Shown: positions 27,552 to 40,553 of the stretch, one piece after another
Layout of the letters: each line of letters begins with the position of its first letter
Numbering within the stretch: the stretch's first letter is position 1
Origin: Hellea sp.
Lineage (GTDB): Bacteria > Pseudomonadota > Alphaproteobacteria > Caulobacterales > Maricaulaceae
Reading direction: 5' to 3'
NCBI GenBank assembly: GCA_020628495.1
Contig: JAHDFA010000007.1
Location: 1,906 to 42,458, forward strand
Length of the DNA: 40,553 nt
Made by a program: the position numbers and the translations under genes
Notes under the pieces: generated by a model
Seen by the model: only the letters and a program-made list of their open reading frames with translations
Told to the model about the DNA's origin: nothing
The model's database searches: none

Positions 27552-27919
27552 ATAATCCTCGTTTCCAAAAGCTGTGCTATATTGCAGATGTTCTTTCAGA
27601 CATAGGACAGGTAGACGTCACCTACTGGTCTGGAAGACGGTGGGTCTGAGCATCCGGCGGTGACACGTTGGACTGAGCCGGGACTTTAGGAGTGAGAGCC
27701 GATGCGTGGGGCCAGAGATGCCTCAACTCGTAGGACAGACGGGCCGCTTCTTCAAAAACCGCTGCCGCAGAGTTTGTTTGCCGTCTTACAATCGGTGGAC
27801 ATCGTCTTCGCGTAAAACATTTCTTCCTCTTTCCCATGGTATTTCCATCGGGAAGACAACTCTGCGGGCAAGTCCTGCTTTATAATTGAACTCGGCTGAC
27901 CTCTCGATAGGCGGCAGCA
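27552..27919 (-). repeat. Copy 1 of a ~365-bp diverged dispersed element (candidate structured ncRNA or small mobile repeat)
   Basis: Reverse complement aligns by eye with 38274-38640; shared blocks include GTCAGCCGAG, TATAAAGCAGGAC, GCCCGCAGAGTTGTCTTCCCGATGG, CCGATTGTAAGAC, GGTTTTTGAAGAA, GGATGCTCAGACCCA, GTCTGAAAGAACAT. Weaker similarity continues to about 27471. Confidence 0.85.
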
Positions 27920-28229
27920 AAATAACCCTGCCCAAATCTGTAACAATGAAAACTGAACAGTTATGTATTCGATGCCGCACTGCGCTGCAGCTTGCCTTTT
28001 TCTCTAAGATAATTTTCTGAGAGAACTATCAAAAAATTGCCCGAATAGTGTTGAAAGTACTGACGTTTTGAAGGGCGACATTCCTAGATCCTAAATTTTG
28101 AATATCAGAAAGCCCCAAATACCACCCATATGAGGGGGGATGATAGTGGGCTATACAGACAGCTCAAATCACAGCACACAAGACTAACCCACAATCAATA
28201 TATACATTTGATTGTGAGTGGGGGTCGAT

Positions 28230-37474: not shown

Positions 37475-38227
37475 CTACGGGAATTGCAGCATTTTAAATT
37501 CACCGCGAATGGCGCGGGAATAGAAAATCCGCTCCGGTGGTCGGTCCGCTTTCAGATAGCGCTCCAGCACTTGCAGCATCATATCCGTGGCGCGCTGCGT
37601 CTCCAGTTTTTCAATCTCGTGAAATGTGAACCATCCGACATTCAAAAGCTCTGAACTGTCAGAAATCTGGGGCGGTTTTATATTCCCAAGATGTTTGACA
37701 AAAAACCACGCATCAAAGCGTTTATGACGGTGCGGCGGGGTCACAGCGCGGCCAAAGACTTCAACGCCGGACAAATCAGGCAGCAGGCCTTTTTCGCGAA
37801 ACGCGTCATAACTGGCATGGGTCAAATTACGGTGAGAGACGGATTTTGCGCCCAGCATGAGACCCGTTTCTTCCCATGTCTCCCGCACGCTGGCGAGGGC
37901 AATTGCTCTGGCCCGGCGAGGATTATAAGCCGCTTCCAATATGCGTTCTGTTCGTGCGGACAGATCGCCCGCATATTTGGCATAAGAGTCAGCGCGGTCG
38001 ACCCGCCCGCCCGGAAAGACATAGACGCTGGGCATGAAATCATGGCGTTTGGATCGCTGTCCCATAAGGATTTTTAGGTTTTTACCCGCCCCACAGGTCA
38101 ACACCAATGTCGAGGCGAGGCGTGGTCGCGGGGCCCGGTCCAACTCTTTGCGTTTGGCTCGCTCGCCATCGGTAATTTTCATCTTACCGACGAGGACCGG
38201 ACCGGAATCTTTGATGGGGTCTGACAT
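37475..38227 (-). CDS. NUDIX hydrolase
   Basis: VYVFPGGRVDRAD...ALASVRETWEETGLMLG Nudix-box-like. Confidence 0.88.
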   Translation of the reverse strand: MSDPIKDSGPVLVGKMKITDGERAKRKELDRAPRPRLASTLVLTCGAGKNLKILMGQRSKRHDFMPSVYVFPGGRVDRADSYAKYAGDLSARTERILEAAYNPRRARAIALASVRETWEETGLMLGAKSVSHRNLTHASYDAFREKGLLPDLSGVEVFGRAVTPPHRHKRFDAWFFVKHLGNIKPPQISDSSELLNVGWFTFHEIEKLETQRATDMMLQVLERYLKADRPPERIFYSRAIRGEFKMLQFP

Positions 38228-38273
38228 GGGAGGGTGATGAAGGGTCAGGGATTTGAAGACAAGCGAAAGCTGC

Positions 38274-38640
38274 TGCTGCCAATTGGAGGGTCAGCCGAGG
38301 TCAAATATAAAGCAGGACGTGCCCGCAGAGTTGTCTTCCCGATGGAATACCAGAAGGGGAAGTAGAGTTTTGTTTTACAGAAAGACGTACGTGCCGATTG
38401 TAAGACAGCACGCACAAACCCTGCGGCGATGGTTTTTGAAGAAACGGCCGGTGCAACCCTAGAGTTGGCCCACTTGGAACCACTAGTCGGCTCTCGTTTC
38501 CAAAGCCCCGGCACAGTCCGATGTCTCACCACCGGATGCTCAGACCCATCGTCCTCCAGACCAGTCGGTGAGCTCCTACCTGTCCCATGTCTGAAAGAAC
38601 ATATGCACTATAGCACGGGTCCCAAGCGACGAGGATTATG
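38274..38640 (+). repeat. Copy 2 of the ~365-bp diverged dispersed element
   Basis: Aligns by eye with reverse complement of 27552-27919; conserved hairpin CTTCCC...GGGAAG (38335-38362) and long-range pairing CCGCAGAGTT(38323-38332)/AACCCTGCGG(38417-38426). Confidence 0.85.
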
Positions 38641-38746
38641 TTTTTTCGAGATGGGGACGGAGTTTGAAAAACCTGCGGTAAGCTTGGGAAAAGCGGAAAA
38701 TAATATGTGGATACGCAGATTTTGAAACGGGGATGGCGCAACGTCC

Positions 38747-38860
38747 GCATTTGACGTGGGACGTCAAATGCAGTGCAGCGCCGAACTGCTTTGCAGTTCG
38801 GTTCCTCGTCAGTGGGTCTCCCGGCCCCATCGTCTTCGTCATCCTCTCCTTGGGGAGAGG
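38747..38860. repeat. Cluster of three perfect hairpins
   Basis: GCATTTGACGT-ggg-ACGTCAAATGC (38747-38771); CCGAACTGC-ttt-GCAGTTCGG (38781-38801); CCTCTCC-ttgg-GGAGAGG (38843-38860). Confidence 0.75.
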
Positions 38861-38943: not shown

Positions 38944-40553
38944 TTATCTTCGCCTGCGCCTATGCTTTGCGCCCCGTGACTTATGGCTTCCACCGCCGCC
39001 GCGGTGGTTTCGTTTGGGCGGTTTGCCCTTTTCGGGTTTGCTGACCATCTCAAAAACGAGACCGCCCGTAACGGGCGTGGCTTCTTCGAGCTTGGCTTTG
39101 ATGGGGCGTCCGAATCGGTAAGTGTCGCCGCTTTCCGCGCCGACCAAGGCCCGGTTTTTTTCGTCATAGGCGAAATATTCATGGCCGAGATTGCGGGCAG
39201 GGATGAGGCCATCCGCGCCCGTTTCGTCCAGGGTGATGAACAAGCCGAATTTCGTCACGCCCGTAATCCGCGCATTGAAGGTGGCACCCACCCGATCCGA
39301 TAAATAGGCGGCGATATAGCGGTCTTTGGCATCGCGTTCGGCGACCATGGCTTTGCGTTCCGTGGCAGAGATATGTTCGGCGATTTCCTGCAAGCGGGAC
39401 GTACTTTCCTTATCCATCCCGTCTTCGCCTAGATTGAATTTATCGATTAAAGCGCGGTGAACGACGAGGTCGGCATAACGCCGAATGGGTGAGGTGAAAT
39501 GGGTATAGTCGGTCAGGTTCAATCCGAAATGACCGCCCTCGCTGGCGCTGTAAATGGCTTGCGATTGGCTACGCAAAACCGCCATGCCAACGGTTTCGGT
39601 CAAGTCTTTGGCGTCAGCTTGCGCCAGCAGCTTATTCAGGCGCGCCGTTGTTGTCCGCTCGCCCATGCTGAATTTCAGATCTAAGGCAGGAAGGAATTCG
39701 GCGAGACCTTTTAGCTTTTCACCTGACGGCACATCATGGAAGCGCATGATGGCGGGTGTCTTAGTCTCGCCCAAACTCTCTGCCGCGCAGACATTGGCTT
39801 GAACCATGAATTCTTCGATCAGCTTATGTGCGTCAAAACGGTCGCGCAGCGTGATGCCGCTGACTTTGCCGTCTTCGTCAATATGGACGCGGCGTTCGGG
39901 CAACTCGATGGCCAGCGGGGCGCGGGCATCGCGGCCCTTTTTCAGCACGGCATAGGCGGCGTAAATATCCTGAATAATGTCCAGCACGGGTTCTGCCGCT
40001 TCGCCAGCGCGGCCTTCGGCTGCGTCTTGGGCCTGTTGATAGGTCAGGCGGGCATGGCTGCGCATCATGCCGCGCTTAAAGCTGTGGCGCAGTTTCACGC
40101 CTGTTTTATCAAACACCATGCGCACGGCCATACAGGCCCGGTCTTCATGTGGGCGGAGGGAGCAGAGGTCGGAAGACAGCTCATGCGGGAGCATCGGCAC
40201 GACGACATCGGGCAAGTAAACCGAATTGCCGCGCTCGCGGGCTTCCAGGTCCAGTGTGGAACCCGGCGTGACAAAACCTGCGACATCGGCAATTGCGACC
40301 CAAACAACCCATCCGCCTTTATTATTTTCATTTTTGTCGGGGTGGGCGAAGACGGCGTCGTCGAAATCTTTCGCATCGACGGGGTCAATCGTGATGAGGG
40401 GCAGGTCGCGAATATCTTCACGTGCGCCTTCGATTTTTGGCAATTTCAGAGATTTAGCTTCCTCAATGACTTTATCAGGGAAGGTCACGCGAATGTCGTT
40501 TTCATGCAGGCTGATCAGGCTAGCCGATTTCCCGCCTTTGGCCGAGCCGATAA
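38944..40553 (-). CDS. rnr: Ribonuclease R (5' end beyond window)
   Basis: ITIDPVDAKDFDDAVFA, NSVYLPDVVVPMLPHELSSDLCSLRP, YTHFTSPIRRYADLVVHR; S1 domain; frame stays open to window end (IGSAKGGKSASLISLHENDIRVTFPDKV). Confidence 0.95.
   Translation of the reverse strand, partial: IGSAKGGKSASLISLHENDIRVTFPDKVIEEAKSLKLPKIEGAREDIRDLPLITIDPVDAKDFDDAVFAHPDKNENNKGGWVVWVAIADVAGFVTPGSTLDLEARERGNSVYLPDVVVPMLPHELSSDLCSLRPHEDRACMAVRMVFDKTGVKLRHSFKRGMMRSHARLTYQQAQDAAEGRAGEAAEPVLDIIQDIYAAYAVLKKGRDARAPLAIELPERRVHIDEDGKVSGITLRDRFDAHKLIEEFMVQANVCAAESLGETKTPAIMRFHDVPSGEKLKGLAEFLPALDLKFSMGERTTTARLNKLLAQADAKDLTETVGMAVLRSQSQAIYSASEGGHFGLNLTDYTHFTSPIRRYADLVVHRALIDKFNLGEDGMDKESTSRLQEIAEHISATERKAMVAERDAKDRYIAAYLSDRVGATFNARITGVTKFGLFITLDETGADGLIPARNLGHEYFAYDEKNRALVGAESGDTYRFGRPIKAKLEEATPVTGGLVFEMVSKPEKGKPPKRNHRGGGGSHKSRGAKHRRRRR

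Follow-up and report, generated by a model that had tools for sequence, protein, structure and literature searches.

The window analysed here, a stretch of 40,553 nucleotides from a Hellea sp. contig, carries two copies of a structured element in opposite orientations, and we judge it fairly probable that the second of these, copy 2, belongs to a dispersed family of structured RNA genes whose transcripts would dimerise, whose associated protein would act in trans and whose spread would be semi-selfish. The sequence evidence for the predicted RNA, its strand and its promoter is strong. The RNA gene of copy 2 is placed at 38256-38600 on the minus strand by the structure-aware model R2 (match at 38604-38424, 192.7 bits), the promoter logo and conservation, with the inferred +1 set by the logo at 38600, the G of GTTCTTTC, and the 3′ end drawn near 38256 from conservation only. 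Copy 1 occupies 27590-27935 on the plus strand (R2 match at 27586-27767, 164.6 bits).

Strand, fold and promoter of the RNA

A preliminary description of this DNA had read the RNA of copy 2 from the plus strand and delimited it at 38274-38670. On the strand then chosen, A-C mismatches number 327 in the covarying pairs, as against a mere 54 G-U pairs, and the A-C cells become G-U wobbles once the opposite strand is taken. For that strand, the consensus fold reaches −59.3 kcal/mol with 53 pairs (41 sequences), compared with −14.8 kcal/mol and 27 pairs for the strand first read (43 sequences, including two more divergent ones). In the opposite-strand structure, 97.2% of 2163 base-pair cells pair, 32 of the 53 pairs have changed on both sides, two-sided changes amount to 363 cells versus 112 in shuffles, and the covariation score of 0.545 drops to at most 0.128 when the partner is slid by one to three columns. 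The corresponding values for other genera, where the alignment was fitted to the model, are 0.678 and at most 0.116. The opposite-strand model also gives copies from other genera far better scores than the first model did, L177/L198 for instance 67.6 bits as against 39.8. A weaker point is the single-sequence fold of copy 2, which on this strand is only mildly better than shuffles (z −1.78). The strand first read, real as its covariation is, was thus overturned as the RNA strand by its many A-C mismatches; pairing and fold favour the opposite one, on which copy 2 would be transcribed from 38600 to approximately 38256 and copy 1 from 27590 to approximately 27935. The extent originally given to copy 2 holds for the part that overlaps the RNA (approximately 38256-38600), whereas 38601-38670 is promoter region.

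Other parts of the preliminary description stood. An inverted second copy exists, aligning with copy 1 at approximately 81% identity and sharing its block order, and the hairpin CTTCCC..TGG/CCA..GGGAAG and the loop CCGATTGTAAGACA closed by GTGC/GCAC were found at 38335-38362 and 38390-38412, respectively. Both lie within the long-range helix that had also been proposed (38323-38426; 38421-38426 with 38323-38328, CCGCAG/CTGCGG), for which single positions display all four Watson-Crick pair types across 87 copies, well in excess of what chance would give. On the same minus strand, helix 1 (38552-38598; 38590-38598 with 38552-38560), in which 98.9% of cells are paired, surrounds a hairpin at 38563-38580 with the palindrome GAGCTC at its tip (38570-38575), picked out by the hexamer survey described below. 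A three-way junction at 38427-38551, supported by the consensus fold and by pairing and kept in other genera, is composed of helix 3 (38546-38551 with 38427-38432) and arms at 38505-38545 and 38440-38501. The 3′-terminal hairpin (38269-38295) differs among copies.

The promoter logo was obtained from 102 copies aligned with the invariant GTTC set as +1. It contains an extended −10 at the standard distance from +1 (T−12, A−11 at 88%, T−10, A−9, T−8 and T−7 at 90%), the TG of which is present at 68% (T−15) and 73% (G−14), and a conserved upstream block (C−33 at 95%, A−41 at 88%). In copy 2, the upstream block lies at 38625-38642 and the extended −10, TG-C-TATAGT (TGCTATAGT; positions −15 to −7), at 38607-38615, both on the minus strand; the counterpart in copy 1 is TG-C-TATATT (TGCTATATT) at 27575-27583 on the plus strand. 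The ATCC-type box of the upstream block recurs in other genera, and in copies of another genus both the −10 and the block near −33 are visible. Copy 2 had been thought to lack a −10 and hence to be possibly silent; the −10 is there, so nothing points to silence. A block of 8 variable bases close to the core, considered as a possible guide, proved to be the unconstrained spacer between the −10 and +1. The RNA is predicted to be transcribed independently, from a promoter of its own. As far as sequence comparison goes, the wobble-containing two-sided compensatory change on one strand and the transcription-start logo show that the RNA is under selection.

Distribution, insertion and spread

The suggestion that two copies in one window imply more in the genome was borne out by a copy count, which placed the element at 18 separate sites in the same genome, itself 66% complete. 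Many of these coincide with the ends of contigs, which is what a repeat that interrupts assembly would produce. Genomes carry approximately 20 to 40 copies each (43 in G076 and 27 in G004). Within the family Robiginitomaculaceae, to which the named carrier, Litorimonas cladophorae, belongs, the first model matches 22 of 137 genomes; wider searches of 200 genomes from the order and 387 from the class, with stricter filters and few candidates scored per genome, gave no match outside this family. Separately, one full copy (L063) is on a contig binned as Akkermansiaceae (JALZUH010000075.1), beside an alphaproteobacterial KpsF-like gene; this contig is probably misbinned. The copies, to judge by their resemblances, evolve in concert, with mosaic exchange of modules inside a genome: of 87 copies, 63 have their nearest relative in their own genome, where 9.6 would be expected, and identities measured module by module are only weakly correlated with one another (0.16-0.44).

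Copy 2 is located between rnr, an exoribonuclease gene, upstream (38944-40488, minus strand; Pfam PF00773 and PF00575) and a NUDIX gene downstream (37475-38227, minus strand; Pfam PF00293), which starts 29 nt past the 3′ end of the RNA. The rnr-NUDIX gap measures 12-63 bp in relatives without the element versus approximately 717 bp here, and in other relatives this position is occupied by different genes. By this comparison, copy 2 is inserted into a compact rnr/NUDIX gene pair. At the copy 1 site, the neighbouring gene differs in the relatives compared for an empty site. Neither terminal inverted repeats nor a target-site duplication were obvious, and the relatives gave no clean base-for-base empty site.

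Searches for the Y1 transposase and for the TnpB zinc ribbon were negative in all 18 genomes of the genus, with the positive controls found, and reverse transcriptase is absent from the copy-rich genomes G003, G004, G012, and G013, although present in some other carriers; none of these three known mobility enzymes is thus common to carriers. Accordingly, IS200/IS605, REP, OMEGA, and retro-type routes are unlikely as a general means of spread. No viral contigs (pattern scan) and no entries in phage or plasmid collections (similarity search) matched the element, and a phage or plasmid origin was rejected. The preliminary description had favoured an RNA gene family over a transposable element. 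Compensatory change, a common promoter and the lack of a known mobility enzyme shared by carriers support the first half of that statement; the exclusion of the second does not follow, as the copies are dispersed and, like copy 2 in its narrow gap, inserted, so that an RNA family and a possibly selfish element are not alternatives.

A palindromic loop and a small protein

Of 61 distinct 22-mers covering the tip of one hairpin, 51 contain a palindrome of six bases, with 8 different hexamers represented. The two copies in the window themselves differ (GACGTC in copy 1, GAGCTC in copy 2) and would not be expected to pair with each other through this loop, loops in other genomes of the family read ACGU, ACGCGU, CGAUCG or UGAUCA, and other genera keep different palindromes. 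We rejected an ordinary stem as the explanation, since a variety of palindromes recurs at a single position, although in some copies the stem takes in part of the palindrome. Pairing of two RNAs through the palindromic loop, as a homodimeric kissing loop, is moderately supported by this pattern; in some Litorimonas versions, two of the six palindrome bases are inside the consensus stem, for which reason dimerisation is kept as a prediction.

A minority of copies are followed, after a short gap and in the same direction, by a gene for a small protein of 88-162 aa with invariant M1 and R3 and a Q-x-K-L motif. The first 14 protein loci all adjoined the RNA. A profile search of the 137 genomes located the protein at 30 loci in 17 genomes, with the RNA directly upstream in 25 of them and partial at a contig end in one more; the remaining loci are mostly cut by contig ends. 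Co-occurrence of RNA and protein is pronounced (Fisher p ~1.3e-14, which is not a strict probability given the relatedness of the genomes), and dN/dS of 0.06-0.27 indicates purifying selection on the protein. In the Hellea genome, the protein is encoded at full length at one locus, on contig C24, and another match is partial; in four species the protein locus adjoins the same neighbouring open frame. The protein was not detected in the RNA-positive genomes G004, G010, G028, G072, G070, and G061. Searches of Pfam, PHROGs and NCBIfam and a PDB profile search yielded no convincing match to it, and its predicted structure is extended and mostly helical, at low confidence (pTM 0.27). Adjacency and co-occurrence lead us to infer that the small protein binds the RNA. 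A divergent version (MSRHNIPT..., with YEDLPPPNPEERERF), missed by the profile search, stands beside an RNA copy in genome G015 (L219).

Interpretation and comparison with known systems

In the reading that we prefer, each RNA copy would be transcribed independently and two RNA molecules would pair through the palindromic loop as a kissing-loop homodimer. One to a few protein-bearing copies would supply the small protein, which would bind RNAs from every copy in trans, giving a ribonucleoprotein. The family would spread and persist in a semi-selfish manner, with recombination or some enzyme copying it between sites. Least certain of all is the role that the particle might have, whether for the cell or for its own benefit. 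The most specific form of this reading, a self-multiplying dispersed ribonucleoprotein element in which dozens of coordinately transcribed, self-dimerising RNAs from scattered loci share in trans a small protein encoded by a few of the copies and which operates without a known transposase or reverse transcriptase, we put forward tentatively, at somewhat under an even chance.

Three other accounts deserve weighing, all of them unlikely. That the element is a non-autonomous DNA transposon or a recombination-spread repeat, with the RNA structure as a by-product, would fit its dispersal, its position in operon gaps and the occurrence in G003 of near-identical copies whose flanks are unrelated, but compensatory change with wobble on one strand (327 versus 54) and the start logo are not expected of a by-product, terminal inverted repeats are not obvious, and reverse transcriptase is absent from the four copy-rich genomes; we give this account little weight. 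Similarly low in probability is a cis-acting leader of the riboswitch or attenuator type, belonging to the downstream ORF and scattered onto other genes by duplication. The co-directional small ORF with its short gap and the proximity of the NUDIX start to copy 2 speak for it, yet the next gene downstream is co-directional in only 57 of 98 copies (one-sided p 0.065) with few recurrent neighbours, a nearly random orientation which argues that the element is not the leader of fixed genes, and a riboswitch is not expected to have homodimer-type palindromes. The third account starts from HEARO and the IsrB-IscB OMEGA systems, which are multicopy and in which the RNA directly precedes an ORF at some sites and stands alone at others. 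The same anatomy is seen here, and the RNA could by analogy be a guide scaffold preceding an effector ORF, the solo RNAs being non-autonomous. The ORF is, however, only 88-162 aa long, mostly helical in a low-confidence model and without library matches; there is no HNH/RuvC effector, no TnpB zinc ribbon or Y1 transposase in the 18 genomes of the genus, and no covariance-model match, HEARO included, in Rfam; and the sole variable block by the core is explained as the promoter spacer. An RNA-guided mobile element of this kind is therefore quite improbable. A sponge for a CsrA-type RNA-binding regulator, brought up by a GNGGAY motif that recurs upstream of the RNA, is barely credible, being largely refuted by the strand result: on the correct strand the motif region is promoter DNA rather than RNA, and ANGGA is not enriched.

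Returning to the RNA family, the window has no match above the gathering threshold in Rfam 15, and the RNA core, searched from eight loci of three genera, has none at E ≤ 0.5, with only chance snoRNA matches at E 2.8 and 5.2; no description of the family was found in the literature. We regard the family as new, because the defining tests singled out no library member or known system. In build, its nearest likenesses are HEARO and the ornate homo-oligomeric RNAs. In OLE, GOLLD, and ROOL, covarying palindromic kissing loops have been taken as evidence of homo-oligomers, the L9.3 loop of OLE switching from GGCC to GAUC or AGCU, and OLE has dedicated protein partners (PMC12286853). The RNA described here is likewise large, ornate and bacterial, with a loop that covaries as a palindrome, but it differs in its length of approximately 345 nt, its tens of dispersed copies per genome, its common promoter, the lack of an Rfam match, and a partner gene that lies directly downstream in few copies only and has no relative among the library families. 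Large structured RNAs whose function is unknown are, in bacteria, typically encoded by one gene each. Tens of promoter-bearing RNA copies, their concerted evolution and a palindromic loop held through many sequence changes are thus an unusual combination, and one may ask by what means these RNA genes spread when no mobility enzyme can be recognised. The retroviral dimer initiation site shares the six-base palindrome in an apical loop (here ACGCGU or CGAUCG, in 9-nt loops of other genomes), whereas the present RNA is chromosomal and bacterial and has no retroviral context. RIME and REP/BIME repeats are similarly dispersed, intergenic and mosaic, but do not have the RNA-level compensatory selection and promoter seen here, and the RAYT (Y1) transposase that characterises the REP/RAYT system was not found in the 18 genomes of the genus. 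One carrier, Litorimonas cladophorae KCTC 23968, is in culture, so that expression of the RNA, its dimerisation and its binding by the protein can be tested directly.

Several further observations concern the surroundings of the copies. The NUDIX-rnr junction is rearranged in various ways in L144, L146, L147, L148, and L149, as if element copies were recombination points. In G003, a unit of approximately 1.2 kb consisting of RNA, ORF, and flank is duplicated at 97% identity (L214/L215) and ends near a REP-like palindrome. A truncated part of the element followed by palindromes and then by a full copy, that is, a tandem partial element, occurs at L145 and L023. Upstream of the copy 2 promoter, 38747-38803 contains the palindromes GCATTTGACGT/ACGTCAAATGC and CGAACTGCTTTGCAGTTCG, and related REP-like palindromes near the copies L023, L051, L061, and L108 suggest a second dispersed repeat.
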